Shown here: positions 519 to 55,776 of the stretch, one piece after another | Position numbering within the stretch: the stretch's first letter is position 1 | How the letters are laid out: every line of letters begins with the position of its first letter | DNA from: Chelativorans petroleitrophicus | GTDB taxonomy: Bacteria; Pseudomonadota; Alphaproteobacteria; Rhizobiales; Rhizobiaceae | NCBI RefSeq assembly: GCF_025398195.1 | Contig: NZ_JAODNV010000008.1 | Coordinates: 1-64,000, forward strand | Direction: 5' to 3' | Length of the DNA stretch: 64,000 bases | Translations under genes and position numbers: made by a program | The notes under the pieces: generated by a model | Told to the model about the DNA's origin: nothing | Databases searched by the model: none | Seen by the model: only the letters and a program-made list of their open reading frames with translations

Positions 519-1397
519 TCAGCCTTTCCGCCGCAGGTCCAGGATCCTGCGTGCCGCCGCCTCCAGGGTGCCGAGGTCACTGCCGTCATCGGGAACCGCG
601 CCCATGCGCTCATGCACGGCGGCGATCGCGCGGCCGAGATCACCCGCAAGGCCAAGCTGATCGAGCGTGGCCGCGCTCTCGCGCATTTCGGCCGCCCGCC
701 GCGCTCCATGCTTCAGCATGCGTTCCATGTTGTAGAGGGCAAGCTGAGATATGTTGAGGCCGGGATAGGACCGCGACAGCGAGGAAATCACGCGGTCGAG
801 GCATCCCGAGGCCGCGGCCGCAAGCACCGCTTCGACGGAGATCGCCTCAAGCCCCTTGACGAACAGGCTGCGCACCATCTTGACGGCCGTCGCCGCGCCC
901 GCCTCTTCGCCCACGACATCGAAATCGAATTCGAGGGCGCGCAGCCTCTCGCGATGCGCCTCGCTCAGCGCTCCGGCCACGAGCACCGGCGTGCGGTGCC
1001 CACGCGGATGGACGGGCGCCATCACGGCCATGTCCACATAGAGCGCGCCGTTTCGGTTGAGCAGCTTGGCCGTCTCGCGCTTCCGCTCCGGCGACACGGA
1101 ATTGATGTCGAAGAAGAGCTGGCCGGGCTTCACATGAGGCGACACGGCTTCCGCCGCCGCAAGGCTCTGGTCCGCCGTCACCGCGCTGATGATCCAGTCG
1201 GCCTGAGCGGCCGCCTCCCTCGGTGCCGCGCAAAGACGGACGGACCGCTCGCGCATCGCCTGGGCGCAGGCGCCGTCCCTACCCTCCCGGTCGAGCAATA
1301 TGTCGTAGGCGGAAAATTCCAGAGCGCCATCATGCGCGCGCAGGGTGTCGCAAAAGGCGCGTGCGGCTTCACCAAACCCGATGAAGGCGATGTGCAT
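519..1397 (-). CDS. NAD(P)-dependent dehydrogenase, 6PGDH-like with DUF1932 domain
   Basis: The 292-residue protein starts with a Rossmann motif (IGFGEAARAF, residues 6-15). An NAD-binding domain of the 6-phosphogluconate dehydrogenase / 3-hydroxyisobutyrate dehydrogenase type follows, and the C-terminal half is DUF1932-like, with the helix MVRSLFVKGLEAISVEA. It is the last gene of the aromatic operon and starts 9 bp after galD. The PDC route normally needs a dehydrogenase (LigC, Gfo/Idh family) to turn carboxy-hydroxymuconate semialdehyde into PDC. No LigC homologue is present in this operon, so this enzyme may fill that step; that is inference. It could instead reduce a side product. The family call is firm, the substrate is not. 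Confidence 0.8.
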   Translation of the reverse strand: MHIAFIGFGEAARAFCDTLRAHDGALEFSAYDILLDREGRDGACAQAMRERSVRLCAAPREAAAQADWIISAVTADQSLAAAEAVSPHVKPGQLFFDINSVSPERKRETAKLLNRNGALYVDMAVMAPVHPRGHRTPVLVAGALSEAHRERLRALEFDFDVVGEEAGAATAVKMVRSLFVKGLEAISVEAVLAAAASGCLDRVISSLSRSYPGLNISQLALYNMERMLKHGARRAAEMRESAATLDQLGLAGDLGRAIAAVHERMGAVPDDGSDLGTLEAAARRILDLRRKG

Positions 1398-1406
1398 GAC
1401 CGGTCC

Positions 1407-2471
1407 TCACGCGAAAACGAGCCCGTCGAAAAGCTTGCGCGCGGTGCGCAGGATCGCCGCGCGCTCGACCGTGCCGTCGGCGCCCACCGTGGCGATGACG
1501 GTCATCTCGCCGGTCGGATGCTCTATGGAGAGCGTCCGCTGCCGGCCGCTTCCCGCCACGGCAAGCTCGGCCGCCGGGCCGCGACCCAGCAGGCAGGCCG
1601 TGGCAACGCTCACCGCCCCCAGAACGCCGATCGAGGAATGGCAGCGGTGCGGAATGAAGGTGCGGGTGGAGATCGCCCCGCCATGCCTTGGCGGCGAAAC
1701 CATGGTCATCTTGGGCACGGACTTCTCTGCCACGTCCCCGAGATTCATCATGGGGCCGGCCTTGAGGCGGATGGCCTCCAGCCGCTCGCGCAGGGCGGCG
1801 TTCGCCTCCAGTTCCGCGGGCGTCTCCTCGCCGGAAATGCCGAGATCGGCCGCGCGCATGACGATGCAGGGCATGCCGTTGTCGATCAGCGTCGCCTCGA
1901 CGCCTTCGATGATGTCCACCACGTTTCCGGTCGGCAGCAGCGCGCCGCAGGACGAGCCTGCCGTATCCTCGAACGCGATGGGAACGGGCGAGGCCGTGCC
2001 CGGCACGCCGTCGATCCGCGCGTCACCTTCATAGGTAACTCTGCCGCCGGGTGTCTTCACCGTCGCGACGGCCACCTGTCCGGTATTTTCCATGAAGATG
2101 CGCACTTCGGTCTCGCCGTCCCGCGCCTCGACCAGTCCGCGCTCGATGGCGAAGGGCGCCACGCCCGCAAGGATGTTGCCGCAGTTCTGCTGATCGGTCA
2201 CGATCGGCCGGTCCACGAAGACCTGCAGGAAGAGATAGTCGACATCCGTTCCCGGGCGTTCGGAGCGTCGCACCACGGCCACCTTCGAGGTGAGCGGGTC
2301 GGCCCCGCCCATGCCGTCGATCTGGCGCGGGTCGGGCGAACCCATGACGCGCAGCAGGAAGGCGTCGCGCGCCGCCGTGTCCGCTGGAAGATCCTCGGCA
2401 AGGAAGTAACCGCCCTTGGACGTGCCGCCGCGCATCCACATGCAGCGCACGCCACGCGCCGTCTCAGACAT
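1407..2471 (-). CDS. galD: 4-oxalomesaconate tautomerase (PrpF family)
   Basis: This 354-residue PrpF-family protein carries the N-terminal [10 protein letters not shown] motif, [19 protein letters not shown] with the conserved Cys, and [19 protein letters not shown] near the C-terminus, where a second catalytic-type Cys lies. GalD of Pseudomonas putida interconverts keto and enol forms of 4-oxalomesaconate in gallate degradation. The start overlaps the end of the aldolase gene by 8 bp, so the two are translationally coupled. Having tautomerase, hydratase and aldolase side by side supports the OMA assignment over other PrpF roles such as aconitate isomerase. Confidence 0.87.
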
Positions 2472-3138
2472 ATTTCAGGCCCTTCGCCTTCAGCTTGTCG
2501 CGCATGCCGTAGATATCGAGGCCAAGCTCGCCCGCCATCAGGCGCTTGCGCGTCTCGGCTTCCTTGGCCTCGCGGGCGCGCGCCTTCTCCAGGGCCTCGG
2601 CCGCCCTTTCCCGGGGCACGACGCACACGCCATCGTCATCCGCAACGATCACATCGCCAGGATTTACATGAGCGCCAGCGCAGACGATCGGCACATTGAC
2701 CGAGCCCAGCGTCTCCTTGACGGTCCCCTGGGCGGAAACGCACTTCGACCAGACGGGAAAGCCGATCTCGGTCAGGTCGCGCACATCCCGCACGCCCGCC
2801 TCGATGACGAGGCCGCGCACCCCCCGCGCCATCAGCGAGCGGGCGAGCAGTTCGCCGAAATAGCCGTCCTCGCACGGGCTGGTGGGCGCCACAACGAGAA
2901 TGTCCCCCTCCCGGCACTGTTCCACCGCCACATGGATCATCCAGTTGTCGCCCGGGGGGATGGAGACGGTAACGGCGGGGCCCGCGATCCGCGCGCCGGC
3001 ATAGATTGGCCGCATGTAGGGCCGCATCAGCCCGGTGCGCCCCTGTGCTTCGTGCACCGTCGCCACGCCGCATTCGCCAAGCCCGTCAACCAGCGCGCGT
3101 TCCGGCCGCTCGATATTCTGAACGACGATACCCATCAC
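2464..3138 (-). CDS. ligK: 4-carboxy-4-hydroxy-2-oxoadipate aldolase / oxaloacetate decarboxylase (RraA-like)
   Basis: The 224-residue RraA-fold protein has the metal and substrate motifs of class II CHA aldolases: the [18 protein letters not shown] loop, [10 protein letters not shown], and [19 protein letters not shown]. LigK/GalC cleaves 4-carboxy-4-hydroxy-2-oxoadipate to pyruvate and oxaloacetate, and also decarboxylates oxaloacetate. It overlaps the hydratase gene by 4 bp (ATGA) and galD by 8 bp. The name galC is used for the same activity in gallate clusters. An RraA-type RNase E regulator role is unlikely in this context. Confidence 0.88.
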
Positions 3139-3866
3139 AGCTCATCCACGGTTCTCGGGAAGACCGACTGGAAGGCCTCGGCATATTTCGCCTCGCGCCC
3201 GCCCGCCTGGCCGCCGGAATTGCGCCGGAACTGGTTGGCGCGGTTTTCCGCGACATTGGTGTAATACTTCCACAGATGCTGCTGGCCTTCCATGCACTCG
3301 ATGGCCGCCTTCTTCTTCTCCCACACCGGCGTGATGTCCAGGATCGTGTCCGGTTTCCAGCCGCACTGCTCTGTCTGATGCGGCTCGAAGAGGTAAAGCT
3401 GCGGCGCGCCAAGCACCTTTTCTCCGGGATTGTGCCCCCAGGCCTGCGCCACCATCCGGCATTCGAGAGCCATTTTCGTGGCATAGGGATGGTCGGTGTT
3501 GTAGGGGTCGTCGAAGGAGTGGGAGAGCATGAAGGCGGGCTGGACCTTGCGGATCACGTCCACCAGACGGAACTTCGCCTCCCGGTCCATCTCCAGCGGA
3601 TAGTCGCCCAGATCGAAGAACTCGATGTTGTGGACGTCGAGCGCCTTCGCCGCGCCCTCCGCCTCCTTGCGCCGTGCGGTCTTCACCTTTTCGAGCGTGG
3701 CGCCTTCCTCCTTCCACAGCTTGGCGCTCTCGCCGCGCTCGCCATAGGAGAGACAGACGACCGTGACGTCGTAGCCCTTTTCCGCATGCAGCGCGATTGC
3801 GCCGCCGCAGCGCCAGACGAAATCGGCCGAATGCGCGCTGATGACCAAAGCGGTCTTGTTCGACAT
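3135..3866 (-). CDS. galB: 4-oxalomesaconate hydratase (PIG-L deacetylase fold)
   Basis: The 243-residue protein has a PIG-L/LmbE N-terminus ([20 protein letters not shown]) with the AHxxD zinc site, then [16 protein letters not shown], whose second His completes the metal site. The form [10 protein letters not shown] is typical of GalB, the Pseudomonas putida OMA hydratase, and differs from N-acetylglucosaminyl deacetylases. It would hydrate OMA to 4-carboxy-4-hydroxy-2-oxoadipate, the substrate of the next gene. Sphingomonad LigJ does the same step with an unrelated amidohydrolase fold, so this operon is of the gallate (Gal) type at this position. The gap to the dioxygenase gene is 3 bp. 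Confidence 0.87.
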
Positions 3867-3869
3867 GGA

Positions 3870-4832
3870 TTATTTCTCCACTTGCTCTACCGGCGGTGTG
3901 CCATGGGTATGGAAACTCTCGATGGTCTTCAGGCCCCAGGCCTGGCCCTTCTTGCGCTCCGCCTCCGTCCAGACCACCGGCTTCCAGTCGGGGTCCAGGA
4001 TCAGTCGGGCGCCGGCGTTGGCTATCTCGACCCGGTTGCCGGCCGGCTCGTAGACATAGAGGAAGAAGGTGCCCTGAATGGCATGCTTGTGCGGCCCGGT
4101 CTCGATGAAGACCCCGTTCTCCAGAAAGATGTCGGCGGCGCGCAGGATGTCGTCGCGGTGGTCGGCGGCGTAGGTGATATGGTGAAAGCGGCCGCGGGCG
4201 CCGGAGTGGTCCTCCGTGCAGGCCATGTCGTAGCCCTTGTTGTTGACCGTGAACCAGCAGCCGGCGATGCGACCGTTGTCGAGCTGGATCAGTTCGGTCA
4301 CGCGGCTGCCCAGAGCCTCGACCATGAAGTCCCGCATCTTGGAAACGTCGGAGGCCAGGAGGTTGAAATGGTCGAGGCGCCGCGGCGCAGCCCCGCGGCC
4401 GTGGTAGCGCTGGGCGATGTTTTTCAGCGCCGGCTTCTCGCCCTCGGGCGCGACATATTTGTTGGTCTCCCAATAGAGTTCGAAGACGTGGCCGTCCGGG
4501 CTGTGGAAGCGATAGCTGGGCCCGTGGCCCCTGTCGCCATCCGTCCAGCCGATGCCGAGCCCCATCGCCTCAATGACCTTCACCCGGCGGTGAAGGGCAG
4601 CCTCCGAGGAGGTGCGGTAGCCGCAATGGCCCATGCCCGTGGTCTTCGAGGCCGTCAGCTTCAGCGTGTGGAACTCGTAGTCGTCCCAGGCGCGAAGATA
4701 GACGCTGTCCCCTTCCCGCCCGCTCTCCGTCAGGCCATAGACATTGACGAAAAAGTCGAGGCTTTCCTCGGGTTTGTTGGTTAAAACCTCCACATGGCCG
4801 AGATGGGCCACATCGAAGCAGGGCTCTTCCAT
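3870..4832 (-). CDS. Two-domain type I extradiol ring-cleavage dioxygenase (VOC fold), catalytic His apparently Tyr
   Basis: The 320-residue protein has two vicinal-oxygen-chelate modules (about 8-125 and 150-275) and resembles homoprotocatechuate 2,3-dioxygenase and catechol 2,3-dioxygenase. The Fe ligands are visible: His155 in RLDHFN, His218 in RFHHITYA and Glu269 in NRVEIAN. Second-sphere residues matching HPCD Asn157, His248 and Tyr257 are also present (Asn157, His250, Tyr259). The acid-base His of the family (HD in HDVA or HDTA) aligns with Tyr201 in KGYDMAC. The chosen ATG lies 6 nt after AAGGGG and 2 nt after the ligI stop; an ATG two codons upstream overlaps that stop. Neighbouring genes imply a substrate such as protocatechuate, gallate or a related ring acid, but this is not shown by the sequence. 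Confidence 0.82.
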   Translation of the reverse strand: MEEPCFDVAHLGHVEVLTNKPEESLDFFVNVYGLTESGREGDSVYLRAWDDYEFHTLKLTASKTTGMGHCGYRTSSEAALHRRVKVIEAMGLGIGWTDGDRGHGPSYRFHSPDGHVFELYWETNKYVAPEGEKPALKNIAQRYHGRGAAPRRLDHFNLLASDVSKMRDFMVEALGSRVTELIQLDNGRIAGCWFTVNNKGYDMACTEDHSGARGRFHHITYAADHRDDILRAADIFLENGVFIETGPHKHAIQGTFFLYVYEPAGNRVEIANAGARLILDPDWKPVVWTEAERKKGQAWGLKTIESFHTHGTPPVEQVEK

Positions 4833-4834
4833 AT

Positions 4835-5743
4835 TCATCCCCTTGTCCCCGTCGCTCTTTCCGCCTCCGCGGCCTGTTCGGGCCAATACAGACGGGCCGG
4901 ATTGTCGACCAGCAAGCGCCTCAGATGTTCCTCATCCGGCACGATTTCTTCAAGCAGATCAACCAGCGCGCCGTCATCGGGCATGTCCTTCTTGATGTTG
5001 GGATGCGGCCAGTCGGTGCCCCAGAGGACCCGATCCGGGAAAAGCTCGACCAGGCGGCGCGCGAACGGCACGGCATCGGCATAGGGCGGCCCCGCGCGCG
5101 TGATGCGTTCGCAGCCGCTTACCTTGATCCAGAAGCGCTCGTCCTCCATGAGATCGACAAGCATGCGGAACGCCGGCTGGTCGAGGCCCTTGCTGGCATC
5201 GACCCGTCCCATATGATCGATGACGAGCTTCAGGGGCAAGGATTTCAGCACCGGCGCCAGCATCTCCAGCCTGTCGGAGTCGAAATAGATCACCGCGTGC
5301 CATCCAAGCGGCACGATCTTCTCGATCACCCGGCGCACCACGGCAAGATCGGCATCCTTGCCGAGATGGGAGACGAAGTTAAAGCGCACACCGCGCACTC
5401 CGCCCTCATGCAGCCTTGCGAGCTCATCGTCGGTAACATCGCCCCTCACCATGGCAATGCCGCGATAGCGCCCATCCGAAGCGGCGATGGCATCGAGCAT
5501 GGCGCTGTTGTCGGTGCCGTGACAGCTTGCCTGCACCAGCACCGCCCTTTCGATACCGAGCAGGCGGTGAAGCGCGAACAGCGTCTCCTTGGTCGCATCA
5601 ACCGGCGTGTAGGTGCGCTCCGGCGCGAAGGGAAATCTGTCGGCCGGCCCGAAGACGTGGCAGTGCGCATCGCAGGCACCGGGCGGCAGTGCGATCTTCG
5701 GCTTGCTGGGCGAGGGATGATACGGAAGGTTCTGGCCGGTCAT
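4835..5743 (-). CDS. ligI: 2-pyrone-4,6-dicarboxylate hydrolase (LigI-like amidohydrolase)
   Basis: This amidohydrolase-fold protein has 302 residues when begun at the ATG that overlaps the TRAP permease stop (TAATG). The open frame runs further upstream, but that part lies inside the permease gene. LigI marks are the early GACDAHCHVFGP, VRFNFVSH, LVIDHMGRVDASKG and the late VLWGTDWPHPNI with the general-base Asp. LigI opens the PDC lactone to 4-oxalomesaconate without needing a bound metal. The hydratase, aldolase and tautomerase for its product lie just downstream, which makes PDC the best-supported intermediate of this operon. Confidence 0.85.
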   Translation of the reverse strand: MTGQNLPYHPSPSKPKIALPPGACDAHCHVFGPADRFPFAPERTYTPVDATKETLFALHRLLGIERAVLVQASCHGTDNSAMLDAIAASDGRYRGIAMVRGDVTDDELARLHEGGVRGVRFNFVSHLGKDADLAVVRRVIEKIVPLGWHAVIYFDSDRLEMLAPVLKSLPLKLVIDHMGRVDASKGLDQPAFRMLVDLMEDERFWIKVSGCERITRAGPPYADAVPFARRLVELFPDRVLWGTDWPHPNIKKDMPDDGALVDLLEEIVPDEEHLRRLLVDNPARLYWPEQAAEAERATGTRG

Positions 5744-7686
5744 TACGATGCCTTGCTGTTGACGCTGAGTGTCTGAAGCGTTGAGGTGGAAGCGCGATAG
5801 ATCACGAATGCGAGCCCCGCGATGCCGGCCAGCCGCATGAAGAGCGTGACCGGATCGGTGGCCGTGACGGCGGTCGGCCACAGCACCATCAGCGAGGTGA
5901 CGGTCATCACCAGGCGTTCGCCCGCTCCCAGCGGCCGCACCAGCCAGCCGGCGAATGCGATCGTAAGGCCGACAATGCCGATCGTGGCGAGCAGCGCTGA
6001 AAGCGTGATCTCGAAGCTCGAACCGATCATCAGCAGGCCCGGCATGGTCGCAAACAGGAACGGCACCAGCAGCTTCACGAAGCCGAGCCGGACCGCCTCG
6101 AAGGCCGTCTTGTTGGCATCACCGCCGGAGATGCTGGCGGCGGCATAGGCCGCGAGCGCCACGGGCGGCGTGATCGCGGAGACCAGCCCGTAATAGAAGA
6201 TGAACATATGCGCCACGATGGCCGGCACGCCGAGCCGGGTCAGAGCCGGCGCAACCAGAACGGCAAGCAGCAGGTAGGCGGCCGAGGTGGGCAGCCCCAT
6301 GCCGAGCACGAAGGACACCAGCGCCGTCAGAATCAGGATGGTCCAGATGCTGTCGCCACCGAGATCGACAATGAGGCCGGACAGCATGAGGCCAAGTCCG
6401 GTGAGATTGAGAACCCCGATCACCGCGCCCGCGGCAGCGACCGCAGCCACGATGGGTATGGATGAAATCAGCGTGTCGCGGCAGACCTGCGCCAGGCCGA
6501 TCGGGCCGACGCGCGTTTCGGCGCGCCAGGGCGAGATGATGAGCGCCATCACCAGGCACATCACCGCCGCCCGCGTCGGCGTGTAGCCAGCGATGAGGAA
6601 GCCCACCAGCGCAAACAGGGGCAGGAGAAGATAGCCGCGTCTGAGCAGCGTCTCGCGCAGAAGCGCAAGGCCGCCCTCCATGTCGCGCTCGAGTCCGAGA
6701 CGGCCGGCCTCGAGCCGCACGGCGACGAGGAGCGCGATGCAGTAGAGCGCGGCCGGAAGGATCGCAGCGAAGGCGATATGCGAATAGGGAACGCCGATGA
6801 TCTCCGCCATCAGGAAGGCGGCGGCACCCATCACCGGCGGCAGGATCTGGCCCGCCGACGACGCAGCCGCCTCGATGGCGCCGGCAAGCGTGGCCGAGTA
6901 GCCGACGCGCTTCATCAAGGGAATGGTGAAGGTGCCGGTGGTCACCACATTGGCGACGGCGCTGCCATTAATGGTGCCGAGCATGGTGCTCGACAAGGCG
7001 GCAGACAGGCCCGGCCCGCCCTGCATGCGGCCGGTCAGGCCGCGCGCGATATCGACGAACACCTCGCCCGTGCCGACCTTCATCAGCAGTGTGCCGAGCA
7101 GTGCGAAAAGGAAGATGTATTCGACCGCAACGCCCATCGGCAGGCCGTAGACGCCTTCCGTCGAAAGCATCAGCATCGAGGCAAGGCGCCTTATGCCATA
7201 ACCCCCATGGCCGTACTGCCCGGGAATGAGATAGCCGAACCAGGCATATGCCAGCGCCACCGCCACCAGCACCACCAGCGCCCAGCCCACGGCCATGCGC
7301 ACGAGCACGAGCAGTGCCGCCATCAGACCGACGAAGATCCATAGATCAGGCGGGGTCGCCATCGCGCCCCGCATGATGATGTCGAAGTAGGTCGACCAGA
7401 GATGGAAGCCCGGCACCAGCGCGACAGCTGCAAGCGCGTAGCACAGGTACCGGACCCAACTGTTACGGGCCTTCAGGCCGACAAACAGCAGCCCTGCCGA
7501 CGAAACGAGGGAGAAGAATATGGAACGCAGGATCAGAGCCGTGATCAGGCCGAAATACGCGCCGTAGACCACCAAGGCGGTAACCGCCACCGCAAGGATG
7601 GTGAAGGCCAGCGAGACTATCGCCGTCTCGCGTTCGCTCCGAGGCGCCTGATGGTCCAATCTCACCTCGTCGATGAAGGAGAGCAT
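5743..7686 (-). CDS. TRAP transporter permease, fused 4TM/12TM (DctQM) subunit
   Basis: The 647-residue, very hydrophobic protein contains the TRAP large-subunit signatures LSTMLGTINGSAVANVVTTG, PPVMGAAAFLMAEIIGVPY and GMGLPTSAAYLLLAVLVAP. The N-terminal hydrophobic segments stand in for the small DctQ subunit, so both membrane parts are one protein, as is usual in TAXI systems. It works with the binding protein encoded 20 bp upstream and uses an ion gradient to import an organic acid. Given the downstream enzymes, the cargo is probably an aromatic or pyrone carboxylate (inference). The stop codon overlaps the ligI start. Confidence 0.92.
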   Translation of the reverse strand: MLSFIDEVRLDHQAPRSERETAIVSLAFTILAVAVTALVVYGAYFGLITALILRSIFFSLVSSAGLLFVGLKARNSWVRYLCYALAAVALVPGFHLWSTYFDIIMRGAMATPPDLWIFVGLMAALLVLVRMAVGWALVVLVAVALAYAWFGYLIPGQYGHGGYGIRRLASMLMLSTEGVYGLPMGVAVEYIFLFALLGTLLMKVGTGEVFVDIARGLTGRMQGGPGLSAALSSTMLGTINGSAVANVVTTGTFTIPLMKRVGYSATLAGAIEAAASSAGQILPPVMGAAAFLMAEIIGVPYSHIAFAAILPAALYCIALLVAVRLEAGRLGLERDMEGGLALLRETLLRRGYLLLPLFALVGFLIAGYTPTRAAVMCLVMALIISPWRAETRVGPIGLAQVCRDTLISSIPIVAAVAAAGAVIGVLNLTGLGLMLSGLIVDLGGDSIWTILILTALVSFVLGMGLPTSAAYLLLAVLVAPALTRLGVPAIVAHMFIFYYGLVSAITPPVALAAYAAASISGGDANKTAFEAVRLGFVKLLVPFLFATMPGLLMIGSSFEITLSALLATIGIVGLTIAFAGWLVRPLGAGERLVMTVTSLMVLWPTAVTATDPVTLFMRLAGIAGLAFVIYRASTSTLQTLSVNSKAS

Positions 7687-7706
7687 GCTGTTTCCCCTGT
7701 GGGATC

Positions 7707-8639
7707 CTATTGTGCGCTGTCGAAGTAGCTCTTAGCGCCCGGATGCAGATCGATCGGCGTCCGGGTGGCCGTCTCAAGCGAAATGGCCTTGGCCTGGGGA
7801 TGGATTTCCCCCAGTTCGTCCAAATGCTCGAAGAGCGTCCTAGTGATCGCCTCGATCAGTCCGGGATCCGCGTCTTCCTTCACGAACAGGGTCGCGGGGT
7901 CGTTAACAACGATTACCGCTTCCGTCTGGTCGGGATAGGTTCCAGCCGGAATCTCGTATGGCTGATAGAAGGGGTAATCCTCGAACAGTCCGCCGACCTT
8001 CTCCTCATCGAGCGAGAGCAGGACCATGTCGCGCTGCGCGTCGAGATCGATCAAGGCCGCCGTCGGCGCGCCCGCCAGTACCACTGTGGCGTCCACCGTG
8101 CCGTTCATCAGCGCGTTGGTGCCCTCGGTGTAGGACAGGAACTGGGCGTTGCCGGGATCGAAAACGCCGTAGGCCTCGAGCAGGCGCTGCGCGAGCACAG
8201 CCGAGTTGCTTCCGGGAGGTCCGAGATTGACCCGCTTGCCCGCCAGGTCCTCGAAGCCCTTGATGCCCGTATCGGCAATGGTGGCGAACTGCAGCACCGC
8301 TGGATAGAGATAGGCCATCGCCGCAACCGCCTGCGGATCGCCATCGAAGGGTCCCTCCCCGTTCTTCGCTTCATAGAGCGTCGAGGAAGAGGAGAAGCCG
8401 AAGGTCATCTGGCCGGCGGCAACGCGGCGGATGTTTTCGACCGAAGCGCCCGTCACCTCGGCGCGCGCCGTGGCGTCTTCCATGTACTTGTTGATGATGT
8501 CGGCCATGCCGGCGCCGATCACGTAGAAAAGGCCGCCGGTGCCGCCGGTGCCGATCGAGATGCGCTCCTCGGCGCTTGCCGGCATGGCAAGCAGCGCGGT
8601 TGCCACCGCGAGCATCTTAAGATTCCGCCCTAACTTCAT
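7707..8639 (-). CDS. TAXI-family TRAP transporter solute-binding protein
   Basis: The 310-residue periplasmic protein begins with a signal peptide (MKLGRNLKMLAVATALLAMP, cleavage after ASA) and continues with ISIGTGGTGGLFYVIGAGMA, the TAXI-family signature. GPPGSNSAVLAQRLLEAYG and FVKEDADPGLIEAITRTLF are also typical. The start at 8639 is preceded by GGGAGG with 8 nt spacing; a longer frame from 8660 lacks such a site. It follows the TetR gene by 17 bp and precedes the permease by 20 bp. It supplies ligand to the fused permease for the aromatic operon. Confidence 0.9.
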   Translation of the reverse strand: MKLGRNLKMLAVATALLAMPASAEERISIGTGGTGGLFYVIGAGMADIINKYMEDATARAEVTGASVENIRRVAAGQMTFGFSSSSTLYEAKNGEGPFDGDPQAVAAMAYLYPAVLQFATIADTGIKGFEDLAGKRVNLGPPGSNSAVLAQRLLEAYGVFDPGNAQFLSYTEGTNALMNGTVDATVVLAGAPTAALIDLDAQRDMVLLSLDEEKVGGLFEDYPFYQPYEIPAGTYPDQTEAVIVVNDPATLFVKEDADPGLIEAITRTLFEHLDELGEIHPQAKAISLETATRTPIDLHPGAKSYFDSAQ

Positions 8640-8656
8640 GGTCCAAACCTCCCGGT

Positions 8657-9355
8657 TCATTGCTGTTCAGTTTGCGCCAGTTGCGGCGCTGAGCACGCCT
8701 CGGGCCTGGCGAGCGCCCGTAGACTTGCAAAGGCCGAGGCAACGATCTGCCTGATCGCCTCCTCCTGGTCGCTGCCGTCCACCGCCCCGTCCGACAGGCG
8801 GTCGATGCGCTGCGGATTGATGAGGGTATAGTAGAGCGCGCCGAGCAGGAACTGACTGCGCCAGACGATGTCGTTGCGGTTGGCGCCCGGCAGGCATTCG
8901 GCAATCGCATCGATGAAGGCGCGCGTGGTCTTGTCGAACGACCTGGCGATGATTTCGCGCGCCTGCGGGTTGCCTTCAGCCGACAGAATGGCGCGCATGC
9001 GCGTGAAGCGCGCGCCGCCCCCGGCAAGATCGTCCGAGGAGGAAAAGGCCGGCAGGAGATAGGCCCGCAAAATGGCCGTCAGGCGCTCGTCGGGATCCTC
9101 GATCCGCTTCGCCTCGCCGATGAGCTCCAGCCGGCGCGCGTTCATCGGGCGCGTGTGGCGCGTGTAGATCGCTTCCAGAATGCCGCTCTTGTCGTGGAAA
9201 TGGTAGGTGACGCTGCCGACATTCACCTTCGCCTCGCGCGCGATCTCGCGCAGCGACACCGCACCGAAGCCGCGCTGCGAAAAGAGGTTTTCGGCAGCTT
9301 CAAGGATTGCGGATCTGGGGTCGGCTGCAGCCGGCGCTTTCGGCATCGGTGACAT
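8657..9355 (-). CDS. TetR-family transcriptional regulator of the aromatic operon
   Basis: The 232-residue protein has an N-terminal TetR helix-turn-helix (about residues 16-60: AILEAAENLFSQRGFGAVSL, then REIAREAKVNVGSVTYHFHD) and a longer ligand-binding C-terminal half. It is the first gene of the operon rather than divergent from it, and the transporter follows 17 bp later. A perfect palindrome 51 bp ahead of its start is the obvious operator. The simplest model is a self-repressing operon released by an aromatic acid or ring-cleavage product (inference). Confidence 0.87.
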   Translation of the reverse strand: MSPMPKAPAAADPRSAILEAAENLFSQRGFGAVSLREIAREAKVNVGSVTYHFHDKSGILEAIYTRHTRPMNARRLELIGEAKRIEDPDERLTAILRAYLLPAFSSSDDLAGGGARFTRMRAILSAEGNPQAREIIARSFDKTTRAFIDAIAECLPGANRNDIVWRSQFLLGALYYTLINPQRIDRLSDGAVDGSDQEEAIRQIVASAFASLRALARPEACSAPQLAQTEQQ

Positions 9356-9405
9356 TTCATCCTGACGGGAGGACTCGTTAGCGCCGTCATTCTCACTTGT
9401 CCATA

Positions 9406-9429
9406 TCTCTTGTACAAATGTACAAGAGA
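9406..9429. promoter_or_regulatory. Perfect 24-bp palindrome, probable TetR operator
   Basis: Arms TCTCTTGTACA (9406-9416) and TGTACAAGAGA (9419-9429) are exact reverse complements around AA. It lies between the Tm-1-like gene and the TetR gene, 51 bp upstream of the TetR start. Length and near-zero spacer suit a TetR dimer or dimer pair. I found no convincing -35/-10 pair around it. Confidence 0.75.
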
Positions 9430-9511
9430 ATTACCCACATGATAAATCCGGATAGCCGGCGAGCAGTCGAGCTCCGTCAGCTAAAGCGAGGGAGGCAAAA
9501 AGGCGGGGTGC

Positions 9512-10729
9512 TCAGACCGGATGCGCCGGCGCAGCAGCCATGATTTCCCGAAAGTTGGCGACCACAGCCGCGGCAAAGGCGGGGTCGTTGATGTTGGCGT
9601 CGACCTCTATAAGGCGGCGGTTTTCCGCCTCCACCCAGCCCCGGCGAATGGCATCGAACAGCGCCCGGTCGGCTTCCGGGTCGTGGAAGGGCTGCCCGGG
9701 CATGTCGATGGCCGATACACCGTCGAGCGGCAGAAGGAAACGGACCGGCCCTTCCATTCGGTTGAGCCGCTCGACGATGAAGGCGCCGATGGCGGCATTT
9801 TCCTCCGCCGTCGTGCGCATCAGCGTCACCTGCGCGTTGTGCATGTGGAGGTTTCGCGTCCTGAATCGTTCCGGCACGGTCTCGCGCGCCCCAAAATTCA
9901 CCATATCGACAGCGCCCACGGAGCCGATATAAGGAACTTTCGTGCGGATGATGCTGCCGAAGCGGTCTTCCGTGGCTGGAAGAACGCCGCCGACGAGAAG
10001 ATCGGCCACTTCGGTAGTGGTGAGATCGAGGACGCCCCTGAAGAAGCCTGAATCCGTAAGCTTTTCCATAGACTGCCCGCCAGTGCCAGTGGCGTGGAAA
10101 ACAACGACGTCGTAATCGGGTTCGAGCGCGGTGCGCACCTGCGTTACGCAGGGGGTCGTAACGCCGAACATTGTCACGCCCAGCGCGGGCCGGCTTTCCT
10201 GCGAGGTGGAAACGGCGTTGAGCACCATGCCCGCGGCGGCGTGGGCCGCGTTCGCAATGACCTGGCGCGAAATCGCATTCAGGCCGGCGATGTCCACGAC
10301 CGAATACATCATGGCGATGTCGCTCGGGCCGACATAGGGCGCCGTGTTGCCGGAAGCGACGGTGGACAGCATGAGCTTGGGCACGCCCACCGGCAGCCGG
10401 CGCATCGCTTCCGTCACAAGAGCGGTGTTTCCGCTGCCGCCAAGCCCCAGGACGCCGCCAACGTCATCGCGGGAAAGCAGGAAGTTGCCGAGAGCCTCCG
10501 CCATGGCCGAGACCGCCCTGCCCCTGTCCTTCAGGGAAAGCACGGCATCGGCCCCGCCGGGATGATGAGCGGCGACGGCGCTTGCCGGAATATCCGCATC
10601 CGTGGTGGATTGCTGCGTGCCGACATCAACAAGACAAACCTCGACACCGGCGGCTGCCGCCATCGCTTTCGCGTAGCGCAGCTCCTCGCCCTTGGTGTCC
10701 ATCGTGCCGACGACATAGAGCTTCTTCAT
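9512..10729 (-). CDS. Tm-1-like ATP-binding domain protein (UPF0261)
   Basis: The 405-residue protein starts [20 protein letters not shown], the hallmark of the UPF0261 / Tm-1-like family. It continues with [34 protein letters not shown]-like text and [14 protein letters not shown]. The tomato Tm-1 protein binds ATP and inhibits tobamovirus replicase; the bacterial role is unknown. In other bacteria this gene often sits beside a TIM-barrel 'PEP hydrolase-like' partner gene, which is absent here. It is well spaced from TetR (156 bp) and may be a separate unit. A good ribosome site (GGAGG, 6 nt) precedes the ATG. Confidence 0.85.
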
Positions 10730-11025
10730 CGGCCTCCTCCCTCCCTTGCTGTGCGCCCGATGAAACGGACGAAGGATAACTGCAGGAGGGCGAGGAGCAA
10801 AGAAAAAGGCGCGACGGCTGGAGAGCCGCGCACGCCTTGCTGGTAGACCGCCAATCCGGTTGCAAGATTAGCGATGGTTATCGTGCAGGCCGGATACCGC
10901 CATTCCTGCGGTGCCCGGCCGCGCACGAAAGTCCATTCTGCGAATGGCTTGCCCCTGGAGATTGGCGGGGCGGAGACGAGAGCCGCCTGACCGTTCTCAG
11001 GCGGCAGCTCAATGGGAAGTCCGTC
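10730..11025. other. Intergenic stretch without a convincing gene
   Basis: About 296 bp lie between the Tm-1-like gene start and the 3' end of the small secreted-protein gene. Short open frames here have no ribosome site and no recognisable product. The only structure I see is the stem-loop at 10982-11005. The promoter of the Tm-1-like gene is expected here, but I cannot place it. Confidence 0.5.
10982..11005 (-). terminator. Stem-loop after the small secreted-protein gene
   Basis: GCCGCCTGA (10982-10990) and TCAGGCGGC (10997-11005) pair perfectly over a 6-nt loop. The hairpin starts 20 nt after the stop codon on the minus strand. A clear U-tract is missing, so termination strength is uncertain. 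Confidence 0.5.
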
Positions 11026-11325
11026 CTAGTCCAGGTTCGGGTAGACGAACACCTTGCCCCTCAGCTGAGCCGGAGCTTCGGCCGAGGCAGAGGCAGTCGC
11101 CTGGATGTTGTCATCCTGCGACAGCTCGACCGGGAGCTGATCCTGGTCCACGCTCGGATGGACGAACACCTTGCCGGAAAGGCGAGCCGGAGCCGGAGCA
11201 GACACAGTGGCCGTGGTAATGGGGTCCACCTGCCGGCGCAGCTCGGGCGGCAGATCGTCCTTGGCGAGCGCCGGACCGGCTAGAAGGACAAGACCGAGGG
11301 TTGCAAAAACTGTCTTACGGTACAT
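11026..11325 (-). CDS. Small secreted protein with a 37-residue tandem duplication
   Basis: The 99-residue product has a signal peptide (MYRKTVFATLGLVLLAGPAL, cleavage near ALA). Two ungapped 37-residue repeats follow, at residues 24-60 and 63-99. Each opens with (D/Q)LPxEL, has an Ala/Ser/Thr/Pro middle and ends with LxGKVFVxPxxD. The mature protein is therefore almost entirely the two repeats joined by Gln-Asp. The start at 11325 is chosen because AAGGAG sits 6 nt before it; an ATG two codons upstream touches that site. I do not recognise a family. A periplasmic or exported role is inferred from the signal alone. It is divergent from the LysR gene. Confidence 0.72.
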   Translation of the reverse strand: MYRKTVFATLGLVLLAGPALAKDDLPPELRRQVDPITTATVSAPAPARLSGKVFVHPSVDQDQLPVELSQDDNIQATASASAEAPAQLRGKVFVYPNLD

Positions 11326-11356
11326 GGTCATCTCCTTGGGAAGGATATTGGTCTCT

Positions 11357-11384
11357 CTGAGGGGGCCGCTTATGGGCCCCTCAG
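11357..11384. promoter_or_regulatory. Near-perfect inverted repeat between secreted-protein and LysR genes
   Basis: CTGAGGGGGCC (11357-11367) and GGGCCCCTCAG (11374-11384) pair with one mismatch over 6 nt. It lies in the divergent promoter region, 32 bp upstream of the secreted-protein start. It could be a leader stem-loop or a regulator site. The sequence alone does not decide. Confidence 0.35.
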
Positions 11385-11460
11385 CGCCCGCTTTACGTGG
11401 GAATGGGTGCGTGATAAAAAAACAGCGATAATTTTGATCTTGTTGTTCAGGAAATCTGAA

Positions 11461-12393
11461 ATGACGATCGCTCCAGGATTGAGCCTGGACCAGCTCCGGG
11501 TCCTTCTAACGGTAGCGGATACTGGCAGCTTCGCCGCAGCGGGACGGCGGTTGAACCGGGCCACCTCCGCAATCAGCTATGCCATCGATGCGCTTGAAAA
11601 CCAGCTTGGGCTTCCCCTCTTCGAAAGAGGCGGCACGCGCAAACCCAAACTGACGCCTGCCGGCCAGGCCGTGGTGGCCGAGGCACGCTCCGTCATGCAC
11701 GGCGCGGAGATGCTGCGGGCGCGGGTCAAGGCGCTTCATGACGGCTTCGAGTCAGAAATCTCGCTGGCCGTCGATCAGATGTTCCCGCACGAGCGTCTCG
11801 TCTCGCTTCTCGCGGCTCTTCATGCGCAGTGCCCGAACGTACCGGTGCGGCTTCAGACCACCATAAAGGGCGGCGTGGAACAGGCCGTGCGCAGCGGCGA
11901 AGCGAATATCGGCGTGGGCGGTTCGATGCACACCGGTGGTGACGGGCTCACCGCGATCCAAATCTCAGGCGTTCCGGTCATTCCCGTCGCGGCACCCAGC
12001 CATCCGCTGGTGACGGCCGGTCGGGTCAGGCCCGGCGCCGCACGCGAGCATCTGCAGCTTCTTCTGGCCCACAGCGAAGAGGCCATCCCCACTACCAAGC
12101 GCCCCTGTTTCGTGGTCGCGGCATCCGTGTGGCGGGTGGGCGATCTGGCGACCCTGCGAGCGCTGCTGCTTGCCGGCGTGGGCTGGAGCGGCATGCCCGA
12201 GCCCATGGTGCGCGAGGATATTCAGCACGGCCGCCTGAGGATACTCGACCTACCGGATTTTCGCGGCGCCGAATATCCGCTCCATGTGACCTATCGGACC
12301 GATGATCCGCCCGGCCCGGGCGGGCGATGGCTGATCGACCGATTGCTGGAGCAGGAGGCCTGGTCGGCGGACACGGCCGTACGCGCGGCCTGA
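11461..12393 (+). CDS. LysR-family transcriptional regulator
   Basis: The 310-residue protein has the LysR N-terminal HTH (LDQLRVLLTVADTGSFAAAG, then RRLNRATSAISYAIDALENQ; about residues 8-66) and a periplasmic-binding-like effector domain. The start at 11461 follows AGGAA by 7 nt; the longer frame from 11407 has no site. The gene is divergent from the small secreted protein and convergent with chrA, so the secreted-protein gene is its likeliest local target (inference). The inducer cannot be told from sequence. Confidence 0.88.
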   Translation: MTIAPGLSLDQLRVLLTVADTGSFAAAGRRLNRATSAISYAIDALENQLGLPLFERGGTRKPKLTPAGQAVVAEARSVMHGAEMLRARVKALHDGFESEISLAVDQMFPHERLVSLLAALHAQCPNVPVRLQTTIKGGVEQAVRSGEANIGVGGSMHTGGDGLTAIQISGVPVIPVAAPSHPLVTAGRVRPGAAREHLQLLLAHSEEAIPTTKRPCFVVAASVWRVGDLATLRALLLAGVGWSGMPEPMVREDIQHGRLRILDLPDFRGAEYPLHVTYRTDDPPGPGGRWLIDRLLEQEAWSADTAVRAA

Positions 12394-12460
12394 ATCGGCT
12401 GAGCGGGATGCGCCGCCTGGCGCCTCCCGCCGGCATGTATCCGGAAGAAGTCGCTACGGC

Positions 12461-13681
12461 TCATAAGCCGATGAGGACGCCACCCGCGGCCGAGACGGCC
12501 ACCACCAGCCAGGGCGGACATTTCCACACCATCAGAAACACGAAACAGGCAAGCGCGAGCACAAACGCTCGCGGACTGGTGATCGCGCTTACCCAAACGG
12601 GCTGGTAGAGGGCTGCGCCCAGAATTCCTACGACGGCAGCATTGGTGCCGCGTATCGCCGCCTGCGCCGCCGGCCAGGTTCTGAACCGATCCCAGAAGGG
12701 AATGACGCCCACGAGCAGCAGGAGGCCCGGGAGGAATATGGCCACGAGCGCGAGGGCCGCCCACGCGAGACCTTCCAAGCCGGGCTCCATGACCGCCCCG
12801 AGATAGGCGGCAAATGTGAAGAGCGGTCCCGGCACTGCCTGGGCTGCGCCGTAGCCCGCAAGGAAGCTGTCGGCCGGCACCCATCCTGTGTGGACGATCT
12901 CCGCTTCAAGAAGCGGCAGAACCACGTGGCCTCCGCCGAACACAAGCGCCCCGGCCCGGTAGAAGGCGTCGAAAACGGCCAACGCCTGCGTACCGGTTGC
13001 CGCCGCCAGAACCGGCGATCCAAACAGGACGAGGAAAAACAGAAAAAGCGCCATAAGGCCCGCAACGGGTGAGACAGGAAAGGCAAGATGCCCGGAGACG
13101 GCTTCCCCTTGCGCCCTGCACAGCCAAAGCCCTGCAAGCCCGCCCATCAGGATCGCGAGTATCTGGCCAAGAGAACCCGATACGAAGACGGCGAGGAGAA
13201 CGGCGCCTAGCGCAATGCTTGCGCGTTCTCTGTCGGGGCAAAGGCTCTTCGCCATGCTCCACACGGCCTGGGCGACGATGGCGACGGCGACGATCTTGAG
13301 ACCGTGGAGAATGCCGGAGCCGGCGGGTCCCGCGAGACCGCTGGCGCCATATGCGAAAAGCATGAGCAGGATCGCGGATGGCAAGGTGAACGCCGTCCAC
13401 GCCGCCGCCGCGCCAGCTGCACCGGCCCGGAAGAGGCCGAGCGCGAAGCCGACCTGGCTCGAAGCGGGGCCAGGCAGGAACTGGGCGAGCGCGACGAGAT
13501 CGGCAAATTCCTTCTCGCCGAGCCACCGGCGTCGGGTGACGAACTCATCGTGAAAATAGCCCAGATGCGCAATCGGGCCGCCGAAAGAGCTCGCACCCAG
13601 CTTCAGGAAAGCGGTGAAGACTTCGGTCGCGCTGCCTGCGGGCTTGCCGCACCGGCCGTTGCCCGCCTCCATGTCGTTCAT
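12461..13681 (-). CDS. chrA: Chromate transporter ChrA, two-domain form
   Basis: The roughly 406-residue membrane protein has two homologous chromate-transport halves. The first holds FLKLGASSFGGPIAHLGYFH and AQFLPGPASSQVGFALG; the second holds AGALVFGGGHVVLPLLEAEI and AQAVPGPLFTFAAYLG. These FGGP / FGGG and PGP motifs define the CHR family, which extrudes chromate from the cytoplasm. The ATG at 13681 (MNDMEAG) is chosen; a frame upstream to 13729 is Arg-rich and unlikely. It converges with LysR. No chrB regulator is adjacent. Confidence 0.88.
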   Translation of the reverse strand: MNDMEAGNGRCGKPAGSATEVFTAFLKLGASSFGGPIAHLGYFHDEFVTRRRWLGEKEFADLVALAQFLPGPASSQVGFALGLFRAGAAGAAAAWTAFTLPSAILLMLFAYGASGLAGPAGSGILHGLKIVAVAIVAQAVWSMAKSLCPDRERASIALGAVLLAVFVSGSLGQILAILMGGLAGLWLCRAQGEAVSGHLAFPVSPVAGLMALFLFFLVLFGSPVLAAATGTQALAVFDAFYRAGALVFGGGHVVLPLLEAEIVHTGWVPADSFLAGYGAAQAVPGPLFTFAAYLGAVMEPGLEGLAWAALALVAIFLPGLLLLVGVIPFWDRFRTWPAAQAAIRGTNAAVVGILGAALYQPVWVSAITSPRAFVLALACFVFLMVWKCPPWLVVAVSAAGGVLIGL

Positions 13682-13910
13682 GCGCCCGTGCCTGCTGTTG
13701 TGCCTCGTTCGCCCGCCGATACGGCGCACGCGAATTCAAATCAATCGGCGAACCCACATTTTGTCCGGCAGCCGGGGCCGCTGAGTACACGAGCGGGCCG
13801 TATATGCTTCCCGCAGACGAACACAATAATGTGTGCAGAAATGAGTTTCCGGGAACGCACGCTGCATTACCATGCGGCCAGTTCAGCCTGCATCGCATGA
13901 GGATTAATCG

Positions 13911-14851
<941 letters not shown>

Positions 14852-14852
<1 letters not shown>

Positions 14853-15496
14853 TGTCCTTCACCGCACCCGCCCGGACGAGGCCGAAAACATCCACTGGCG
14901 CCCCGTGGCGTCCGCCGCGCGGGCTTGTCTATCTCGTGGGCGTCATCCCGGCTGCCTGGATCCTCTTTCTGGGTTTTACCAACCAGCTGGGCGCAAACCC
15001 GATCCGCACCCTCGAGCAGGAACTCGGCATCTGGACCCTGCGGTTCCTCATCGCCACGCTGACGGTCACGCCGCTGCGCGACCTCTTCGGCATCAACCTG
15101 CTGCGCTACCGGCGCGCGCTCGGGCTTCTGACCTTCTACTACGCGCTCATGCACCTTTCGGCCTATTTGCTTCTGGACTACCGCCTCGATTTCGCAGCCA
15201 TCGGCGCCGACATCGTCAAGCGGCCCTACATCACCTTCGGCATGCTGGCCTTCGCGATCCTCATCCCGCTGGCGCTCACCTCCACGGACCGGGCGATCCG
15301 TCGCCTCGGGAAGGCATGGAGCAGGCTTCACCGCTGGGTGTATCTGGCCGCAGCGGCAGCGGCCCTGCATTTCGTTCTCGTCGTGAAGTCCTGGCCGCTG
15401 GAGCCGCTGATCTACGCCGCGATTATCGCCGGGCTTCTCGGCTACCGGTTTCTGAAGAAGCTGCGCAGACGGCGACCGCGGGCGGCTTCCGCCTGA
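14852..15496 (+). CDS. msrQ: Heme-binding membrane subunit MsrQ (YedZ)
   Basis: The 214-residue membrane protein of the ferric-reductase-like family passes electrons from quinol to MsrP. It has about six hydrophobic segments. Heme-ligand-type histidines occur in FYYALMHLSAYLLLDY and in RLHRWVYLAAAAAALHFVLV. The start codon overlaps the msrP stop, so the two genes are translationally coupled. Length and motif order fit the family. Confidence 0.92.
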
Positions 15497-15616
15497 GAAT
15501 CCCGGGTCCACTCAGTCGCACTGCGCCAATGGAGAGCCTGCACCTTCCGGCCGCCAAATCCCGTTTGAGCGATGGATTTATCCGTGACAGGATGATGCGG
15601 CATGTGGAGGACTGCA

Positions 15617-16453
15617 ATGATCGTCGACACCCATCTTCATGTCATCGACCAGTCGGTGCTGGCCTATCCTTGGCTTTCCGGGACACCTGCACTCAACCGG
15701 AACTTTTCCTACGAGACCTATGCGCGGGAGGCGAAGCGCGTGGGGATAGAGGCCACGCTGCACATGGAGGTGGATGTCGCCGCCAGCGACATGGAGGCGG
15801 AGACTGAGAATGTGGCCCGGCTCGTCGATCAGCCCGGAAGCCTGATCGTGGGTGCGATCGCCGCCTGCCGCCCCGAAGACGAGACCTTTCCCGCCTATCT
15901 GGAGCGCCACAGGGACAATCCGCTCATCCGCGGTTTTCGCCGGGTTCTGCACGTGATGCCGGATGACCTGTCGGAGCGGCCGCTTTTCCGGGAGAACATC
16001 AGACGCCTTTCCGGCACGGGCCTGACCTTCGATCTGTGCGTGCTGCCGCGGCAGCTTCCGCAGACCATCGCGCTGGTGGACCTTGCGCCCGACGTGCAGT
16101 TCATACTTGACCATTGCGGCGTGCCCGACATCAAGTCGGAAGAGATGCACCCCTGGCGCGAGTTGATGAGCGAGATTGCCAGAAGGCCGAACGTTGCGGG
16201 CAAGATATCCGGCGTGATCGCCTATGCCGATCCGGAGACGTGGACCGTCGAGACGCTGCGGCCGTGGGTGGAACACACGATCGAAGTCTTCGACTGGGAC
16301 CGCGTGGTCTGGGGCAGTGATTGGCCGGTCTGCACGCAGGGAGGCAGCCTGTCCACATGGGTTGCCGCCACCCACGCGCTCATTGCCGGAGCCAGCGAGG
16401 AAGAGCGCCGGAAGCTCCTGTCGCAAAACGCGCGACGAATCTGGCGGCTGTAG
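15617..16453 (+). CDS. Amidohydrolase-family lactonase (L-fuconolactonase-like)
   Basis: The 278-residue TIM-barrel protein has MIVDTHLHVID at the N-terminus, VQFILDHCGVPDIKS in the middle and VVWGSDWPVCTQGG near the end. This is the COG3618 pattern of sugar-lactone hydrolases, to which LigI also belongs. The start is set by GGAGG 6 nt before the ATG at 15617; a frame from 15602 adds five residues without a site. No sugar operon adjoins it, so the lactone is unknown. It converges with ilvD. Confidence 0.82.
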   Translation: MIVDTHLHVIDQSVLAYPWLSGTPALNRNFSYETYAREAKRVGIEATLHMEVDVAASDMEAETENVARLVDQPGSLIVGAIAACRPEDETFPAYLERHRDNPLIRGFRRVLHVMPDDLSERPLFRENIRRLSGTGLTFDLCVLPRQLPQTIALVDLAPDVQFILDHCGVPDIKSEEMHPWRELMSEIARRPNVAGKISGVIAYADPETWTVETLRPWVEHTIEVFDWDRVVWGSDWPVCTQGGSLSTWVAATHALIAGASEEERRKLLSQNARRIWRL

Positions 16454-54690: not shown

Positions 54691-54795
54691 CTGTCTGTCC
54701 CCAACCAGAGTTTCTTGATTGTTATCGTTTACGTGCCGCCTGCTCTTCAGCGGGAGAGAGCGCCCGGTGCCCGGGCGCCCCTATTGCCGGCTGGC

Positions 54796-55776
54796 CTAGT
54801 TCAGCCAGCCCTGCTCCTTGTAGTACTTCTCGGCACCCGGGTGCATCGGAGCGGAGTTGCCCTGGCTTACCATCTGCTCCGGCTCAAGCGTGGCGAGCGC
54901 CGGATGCAGGCTCTTGAAGTCCTCGAAATTGTCGAAGACGGCCTTCACGAGCGCGTAGACAACGTCCTCGGAGACATTCGCAGACGTGACCAGCGTGGCG
55001 CCCACGCCGAAGGTGTTCACGTCCTCGTCATTACCGCGATACATGCCGCCCGGGATAACCGCCTTGAAGTAGTAGGGGTTCTCCTCGACCAGCCTGTCCA
55101 CGACCTCGCCTTCCACCGGCACGATCACGCTGTCGCAGGTGGTGGTGGCCTCCTGGATGGCGCCGGCCGGATGGCCGACCGTGTAGGCGAAGGCATCGAT
55201 GTTGTTGTCGCAAAGAGCGGAGCTCTGCTCGGCCGGCGCAAGCTCGGCGGCCAGCGCGAAGTCGGCGTTCGTCCAGCCCTTTTCGGCGATCAGAAGATCC
55301 ATCAGCGCGCGCTGGCCGGAGCCCGGATTGCCGATGTTGACGCGCTTGCCCTTGAGGTCATCGAAAACCTTGATGCCGGAATCGGCGCGTGCAACGACCG
55401 TCAGCGGCTCCGCATGCAGCGAGAAGACCGCGCGAAGATCCTCATGCGCACCGCCTTCGGCAAAATTCGCCTCGCCGCTGAAGGCGTTGTACTGAACGTC
55501 CGACTGGACGACGCCGAACTCGAGATCGCCGCCCTTGATGGCGTTGACGTTGAACACGGAGCCGCCGGTGGATTCCACCGAGCAGCGGATGCCATGCTCA
55601 CGCCGGCTCTGGTTCATCAGGCGGCAGATGGCCCCGCCCACCGGATAATAGACACCCGTCACGCCGCCGGTGCCGATGGAGATGAACTGCTGCTCCTGGG
55701 CCATCGCCTCGCCCCCGGCCAGCGCACCCAGCATCACGGCAGCCATGCCGAAGCCGAGAATCCGATTTGGTTTCAT
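54796..55776 (-). CDS. TAXI-family TRAP transporter solute-binding protein
   Basis: The 326-residue periplasmic protein has a signal peptide ([20 protein letters not shown], cleavage near AMA) followed by [20 protein letters not shown], the TAXI opening. [10 protein letters not shown]-type text ([20 protein letters not shown]) and the C-terminus [16 protein letters not shown] are also typical. It starts the operon SBP-permease-Usp. No enzyme gene is attached, so the ligand cannot be guessed from context. Confidence 0.91.

Follow-up and report, generated by a model that had tools for sequence, protein, structure and literature searches.

Which aromatic acid is opened by an operon that joins a type I extradiol dioxygenase to the lower genes of gallate and protocatechuate 4,5-cleavage? 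The question is raised by positions 519–8639 of a 64,000-nucleotide stretch of Chelativorans petroleitrophicus (assembly GCF_025398195.1, contig NZ_JAODNV010000008.1, positions 1 to 64,000 of the forward strand), which will be referred to as the window. As a preliminary description of this DNA had proposed, the operon is made of eight tightly packed genes (from open reading frame calls, neighbouring genes overlap by up to 8 bases or lie at most 20 bases apart); all are on the minus strand and could be assigned with curated models and solved structures. The same description had left the substrate as a still unnamed aromatic acid. The comparative evidence points rather to gallate and/or 3-O-methylgallate (3-MGA): we estimate at roughly three in four the probability that the operon is catabolic for one or both of these acids, and that its VOC-fold dioxygenase is a non-homologous replacement of the LigB-family enzymes LigAB, DesB, DesZ and GalA.

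Ring opening and lower steps in the host

The dioxygenase gene (3870–4838) encodes a VOC-fold, i.e. type I, enzyme and not a LigB-type one: it matches PF00903 (72.6 bits) and clears the catechol 2,3-dioxygenase model TIGR03211 by only 3 bits (323.6 for a cut-off of 320.2), and the closest folds retrieved by Foldseek with its AlphaFold model (pLDDT 81.4, built with 31 sequences of its clade) are 3lm4 and AphC (7q2a), together with 1mpy; the best TM-score to the query is 0.90, with AphC. The genes around it belong to another pathway than that of catechol. A GalB-type OMA/KCH hydratase of the PIG-L fold is encoded at 3135–3866 (E 5.3e-99 with the solved structure 5cgz), a LigK/GalC 4-carboxy-4-hydroxy-2-oxoadipate aldolase at 2464–3138 (TIGR02798, 388.8 bits, cut-off 304.5) and a GalD 4-oxalomesaconate (OMA) tautomerase at 1407–2471 (NF033377, 545.9 bits, cut-off 440). 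Judged by these matches the lower gallate/protocatechuate 4,5-cleavage set is present in the operon. The protein encoded at 4835–5746 (alternative starts: GTG at 5746, ATG at 5743) matches LigI of SYK-6 (4d8l) with an E value of 3.8e-89 and on this ground is assigned as a LigI-like 2-pyrone-4,6-dicarboxylate (PDC) hydrolase. The lower steps are thus standard, as previously described. Among the assigned genes of the operon there is no HMS hydrolase or dehydrogenase, no 4-oxalocrotonate enzyme and no dmpG-type aldolase.

The host genome (3.96 Mb in 69 contigs, 99.97% complete) was searched for the missing upper steps, in particular for a separate ligAB or ligC. No LigB-type (PF02900) domain was found in it. 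LigC was not found either: with a LigC from Azospirillum as the query, which is PmdC-like (453.5 bits against the solved PmdC 9azo), the best score in the host was 74.3 bits over query residues 2–194 of 315, while three LigC genes found in other genomes score 377–540 bits. The dioxygenase is present in a single copy, and LigI gives one strong match (698 bits, the next at 86). An adjacent intradiol pair passes the cut-offs for protocatechuate 3,4-dioxygenase, both for beta (313.7 bits, cut-off 296.4) and for alpha (196.7 bits, cut-off 126.25). The absence of LigC closes the known protocatechuate 4,5 route, and these searches, in which a ligABC set or another full 4,5-pathway would have refuted the preliminary description, bear out the idea that the upper step has been replaced.

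The host also encodes five DesA/LigM-type O-demethylases (one on each of contigs C6, C7 and C69, two on C8), with scores of 463–669 bits against the DesA model, whose cut-off of 800 none of them reaches. The two that were scanned with the LigM model reach 768.6 and 684.5 bits, above the cut-off of 580. One of these two, on C7, shares 83% identity with the O-demethylase encoded upstream of the dioxygenase in another locus (L001), and it adjoins a Liv-type ABC transporter 72–80% like that of loci L004 and L006. Since the host has O-demethylases that pass the LigM cut-off outside the contig of the operon, it is doubtful that the operon is self-contained, as it had been called. For three of the five the resemblance to the two LigM queries is only 38–42%; their substrates may be other methoxy compounds.

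In the pathway that we propose, gallate and 3-MGA, products of tannin hydrolysis and of syringate O-demethylation, would enter by the TAXI-TRAP transporter and would be opened by extradiol cleavage by the VOC dioxygenase. Gallate would give OMA directly; 3-MGA would give CHMOD, which would cyclise without enzyme to PDC, and LigI would convert PDC to OMA. GalD, GalB and GalC would then lead from OMA to pyruvate and oxaloacetate. In the host, the LigM/DesA-type O-demethylases encoded elsewhere would supply 3-MGA and gallate, and protocatechuate would follow the 3,4-dioxygenase route. LigC would be dispensable because no semialdehyde is formed. The chemistry agrees with published excerpts: one names 3-MGA, gallate and protocatechuate as the three substrates for ring opening of the 4,5 type, and has 3-MGA open to CHMOD with non-enzymatic conversion to PDC (PMC8091115, in part); another gives OMA as the ring cleavage product of gallate (PMC8431788, in part). 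Of these three substrates only protocatechuate needs LigC, so that LigI and GalD/GalB/GalC without LigC suit gallate and 3-MGA. It is from this gene context that we infer cleavage of gallate or 3-MGA by the dioxygenase.

A dioxygenase clade with a tyrosine in the second sphere

A tree was built with 51 rows: the window, 33 of the 39 loci of a first genome scan, 11 plasmid loci and six outgroup rows. The 45 in-group dioxygenases form one branch (support 100/99). Outside of it are two Thermus enzymes, relatives from Rhodococcus and Geobacillus, the NAH7 catechol 2,3-dioxygenase and an HpaD. The two Thermus enzymes come from catechol-type meta clusters, in which they are ringed by downstream meta-cleavage genes. 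The outgroup branches are long, and the order among these six rows is therefore unsure.

The iron ligands H157, H220 and E271 are present in all 45 rows of the clade and, respectively, in 39 (with one gap), 40 and 40 of the 40 rows of a second draw described below; in XylE we take H153, H214 and E265 to have this role (2-His-1-carboxylate). The second-sphere position is different. Tyr203 replaces the histidine in 45/45 clade rows and 40/40 second-draw rows, while all six outgroup rows keep His. By alignment counts Y203 corresponds to H199 of XylE, H199 of the NAH7 enzyme and H197 of the HpaD row, the latter aligning with His200 of HPCD. In an excerpt of PMC10760822 this His200 is the base that takes the proton of the catechol and hands it to dioxygen, the rate being vanishingly small without it. 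In the clade the acid/base step would thus be done otherwise, the candidates being Tyr203, the clade-specific His250 and the third hydroxyl of the substrate.

Clade-specific residues were scored among polar and aromatic residues only. Ten are fixed in the 45 rows and absent from the six outgroup rows: Y54, N200, Y203, R228, H250, T257, R295, Q299, T305 and H310. Two of them were followed in the second draw, where R228, considered as a possible binder of the carboxylate, is kept in 40/40 rows and H250 in 39/40. The closest solved relative by sequence, PDB 9wgj (385.6 bits), has Tyr in common with the clade at the Y203 position but Met and Ser in place of the clade-invariant R228 and H250; its record name is “Catechol 1,2-dioxygenase”. 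We hold it an even question whether the clade is a widespread, unrecognised class of VOC-fold gallate/3-O-methylgallate dioxygenases, independent of LigAB/DesB/DesZ/GalA, in which the second-sphere His is fixed as Tyr and the acid/base step is therefore different.

Neighbourhoods in other genomes and competing substrates

For the first set of loci, each species was represented by one genome (39 loci, 40 with the window); gene calls and family assignments in the neighbouring loci were made with custom scripts. LigK is found in 34 of the 40 loci, GalB in 33 and GalD in 30; all three are together in 29, at least one Gal gene is present in 34 and none in six. The DUF1932 dehydrogenase is found in 28, a LigM/DesA-type O-demethylase in 22 and LigI in 3. 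As LigI is that rare, the core is formed by GalB, GalC and GalD, and the PDC branch is the local variant. The loci with an O-demethylase span Pseudomonadota, Armatimonadota, Thermomicrobiota and Actinomycetota, and seven of nine O-demethylases scanned (two of the nine being from the host) pass the LigM cut-off. Of the six loci that lack Gal genes, L004, L005 and L006 carry an O-demethylase. In L005 it is followed by a DctP/DctM-type TRAP set, the dioxygenase and a formyltetrahydrofolate deformylase, in this order, a gene set which fits a putative one-carbon recycling after O-demethylation.

Because the first scan favours close relatives, a second set was drawn across the order. The dioxygenase was found at E 1e-80 in 45 of 297 genomes, host included (40 of the 254 of good quality; 26 of 123 genera), and 40 of the 44 other genomes were taken in (G151, G210, G255 and G333 were left out). 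At least one Gal gene is present in 25 of these 40 loci, all three in 18, and Gal or LigM genes in 27; the dehydrogenase is found in 16, LigI in 5, LigB in 3 and LigM in 3. The two sets are partly non-independent, at least three genomes being shared (L150, L161 and L180 are from the same genomes as L017, L027 and L029). In addition 58 plasmid records match the dioxygenase at 60–80% identity, and 9 of the 11 in-group plasmid loci that were examined carry at least one Gal gene. By comparison, Gal genes are found in 0 of 12 control stretches of 5–19 kb, i.e. six around outgroup dioxygenases and six others of the host genome, in which no GalB, GalC or GalD was detected at 80 bits.

On pAt, a plasmid of the walnut-derived Agrobacterium tumefaciens 186, positions 9252–14623 (L096) hold in order GalB, the dioxygenase, GalC, GalD and, directly after GalD, a tannase (PF07519, 437.9 bits). 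On p3 of Azospirillum a GalB-LigK-GalD-LigI block is followed by LigA-LigB, of type II, in the place of the dioxygenase. From gene order, then, the predicted lower pathway stays the same and only the gene for ring cleavage is exchanged. The Azospirillum block bears also on the mixed Lig/Gal type noted previously: the mixture is present in the operon, but it is not unusual.

LigC and LigI were searched in the 39 other dioxygenase-positive genomes. LigC was detected at E 1e-40 in three and not found in the other 36. The contigs on which it lies also hold a LigB gene (G006 C43, G035 C108, G036 C373), so that this LigC belongs to a separate canonical cluster. LigI is found at 54% identity or more in 25 of the 39 (28 have a match at E 1e-40), and in 23 of these 25 it lies outside the stretch around the dioxygenase.

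The transporters beside the dioxygenase gene vary (TAXI, DctPQM, Liv-type ABC, peptide-type ABC). The Agrobacterium plasmid is conjugative, and the same dioxygenase occurs in many walnut isolates among the matches listed. In L030, L031 and L032 (Armatimonadota, Thermomicrobiota and Acidobacteriota; the domain was scanned in L030) a DUF6282 gene precedes GalB and LigK; its product might be a stand-in for LigI or GalD.

Several observations weigh against gallate and 3-MGA as the substrates. The O-demethylases of the host are on other contigs than the operon; 13 of the 22 first-set loci with LigM are of Neorhizobium/Rhizobium type (L009–L020 and L038), and in the second draw LigM is found in only 3 of 40 loci, with 13 of the 40 lacking Gal and LigM genes alike in the stretch examined. 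Moreover LigM also turns vanillate into protocatechuate, so that LigM linkage alone does not single out gallate. Two loci (L092 and L111) have LigK alone, about 7–8 kb from the dioxygenase, and the enterobacterial plasmid loci L097 and L116 (Pantoea and Chimaeribacter) carry the dioxygenase with no Gal gene in the stretch examined. A LigB gene lies beside the type I gene in L153, L179, L180 and L092, where the type I enzyme may act on another substrate. Some PF02900 protein is present in 26 of the 39 dioxygenase-positive genomes, and the universal loss of type II enzymes was for this reason dropped as an argument; the PF02900 family also includes enzymes other than LigAB. How complete these 39 genomes are is not stated, several of them being metagenome bins: single LigC absences thus mean little, the pattern over 36 genomes still counting. 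Finally, the DUF1932 dehydrogenase has no place in the proposed pathway.

This dehydrogenase, a beta-hydroxyacid-dehydrogenase-like protein (519–1397; PF09130 57.6 bits, PF03446 (NAD_binding_2) 35.4 bits; 4ezb, E 4.7e-44), is central to a different scheme, in which a type I protocatechuate 4,5-dioxygenase would form the semialdehyde CHMS and the dehydrogenase would replace LigC in giving PDC, the substrate of LigI. The dehydrogenase and LigI do share the operon, and LigM linkage would supply protocatechuate as well. The idea that the dehydrogenase substitutes for LigC, at first favoured, was given up on two grounds: clusters of Azospirillum hold it together with a LigC-type gene (the one of L090 being PmdC-like), and its closest plasmid relatives (55–56%; L099 9001–9864 and L100 8992–9867) are in tcuA/tcuB clusters. 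These clusters include an isocitrate/isopropylmalate-type dehydrogenase, with a GalD-like gene also in L099, a content that suggests a tricarboxylic hydroxy- or keto-acid as the possible substrate; no ring-cleavage gene is annotated in the tricarballylate (tcuAB) cluster stretches examined. As the dehydrogenase was not found in 12 of the 40 first-set loci, as PDC would be a dead end in the 14 of 39 genomes without LigI at 54% identity or more, and as the host has protocatechuate 3,4-dioxygenase genes, we regard the protocatechuate 4,5 scheme as quite unlikely.

Another trihydroxy- or carboxylated catechol (of the pyrogallol type, or a further methoxylated acid), which would also reach OMA or PDC, could account for the 13 second-draw loci of 40 in which the stretch shows no Gal or LigM gene, and for the varied transporters. 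It seems unlikely, since OMA and its products are what GalD, GalB and GalC work on, a point in favour of gallate-like acids, as is the tannase link. That the enzyme could be an ordinary catechol 2,3-dioxygenase with Gal genes adjacent by chance is suggested by the TIGR03211 cut-off, which is just passed, and by its annotation as such in several records. This is very improbable given the neighbourhood counts relative to the controls, the lack of semialdehyde dehydrogenase, hydrolase and 4-oxalocrotonate genes among the operon's assigned genes, and the position of the clade apart from the enzymes of catechol clusters. Gallate and/or 3-MGA thus remain the preferred substrates.

Other genes of the window and known systems

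The TRAP importer of the operon consists of a TAXI-family solute-binding protein (7707–8660 with a start at 8660, the alternative start being 8639; TIGR02122, 275.1 bits, cut-off 84.35) and a fused permease (5743–7686; TIGR02123, 540.4 bits, cut-off 320.65). A TetR-family regulator is encoded at 8657–9355, minus strand (PF00440 60 bits, PF17939 92 bits). With the 8660 start the TAXI gene shares four bases (ATGA) with the TetR gene, and the regulator has the same position in L026, from Chelativorans sp. ZYF759, where the nine-gene order is identical; for these reasons the operon very probably starts with the TetR gene, bringing the total to nine. A promoter scan found 0 for 1.6 expected.

At the position of R130 of SYK-6 LigI, presumably involved in PDC binding, four of nine aligned LigI-like proteins have His (those of the window, L026, L039 and Roseomonas L092), and five keep Arg (two from Azospirillum, and those from Arthrobacter, Rhizobium and Agrobacterium). 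The sub-group with His may have a changed substrate. Elsewhere in the window, positions 52018–55776 (minus strand) encode a long TRAP permease, in which DctM and DUF3394 domains are present, and, before it, a protein (54796–55776) 27% identical to the one encoded before the TRAP permease of L079, in the same genome; at 12461–16453 a chromate transporter is followed by a molybdopterin oxidoreductase/ferric-reductase-like pair and by an Amidohydro_2 protein.

The breakdown of lignin and tannin yields syringate, 3-MGA and gallate as main products, and the ring-opening enzymes that the excerpts consulted name for them belong to the LigB family or resemble it. An excerpt of PMC12314914 names LigAB, LigA2B2, DesZ, DesB, GalA and the GalA/LigAB-like MgaAB for syringate; in an excerpt on AromaDeg (PMC4250580) the type I substrates named (“among others”) do not include gallate, and the gallate and methylgallate enzymes are in the LigB family. 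No report of a VOC/type I gallate or 3-MGA dioxygenase was found among the papers listed by the literature searches, which is weak evidence of absence as the longer listings were cut short and subscription journals and preprints were outside their scope. If our reading is correct, a type I replacement would be present in 45 of the 297 sampled genomes of the order (host included), and annotation as “catechol 2,3-dioxygenase” or “VOC family protein” would hide gallate use in many plant-associated bacteria. The enzyme would also be a new one for PDC production, and a natural test of the role of the second-sphere His in extradiol chemistry.

Compared with known systems, the operon has homologues of GalB, GalC and GalD of the Pseudomonas putida KT2440 gal pathway (GalA, GalB, GalC, GalD), the lower steps being common to both; GalA is a LigB-family enzyme (PMC4250580, in part), whereas the operon has a VOC enzyme in its place, plus LigI and TAXI-TRAP. 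In Sphingobium SYK-6 and Novosphingobium, the pathways for syringate and 3-MGA (LigAB, DesZ, DesB, LigI, LigM, DesA) have in common with it LigI, LigM-type O-demethylases in the genome and the route from 3-MGA and gallate to PDC and OMA. These pathways differ by their LigB-family ring-opening enzymes, and GalB and GalD are found here for LigJ and LigU respectively (pairs given in an excerpt of PMC12314914). The Azospirillum p3 clusters (L088, L090 and L094) have the same GalB, LigK, GalD and LigI, with the DUF1932 dehydrogenase near by, but a type II LigAB and, in L090 and L094, a LigC-type Gfo/Idh gene. With AphC (7q2a), 3lm4, XylE (1mpy) and HPCD (1f1u) the dioxygenase shares the fold and the iron ligands; it is at most 37% identical to them among the matches listed, and differs by its tyrosine in place of the second-sphere His and by its Gal-gene context.

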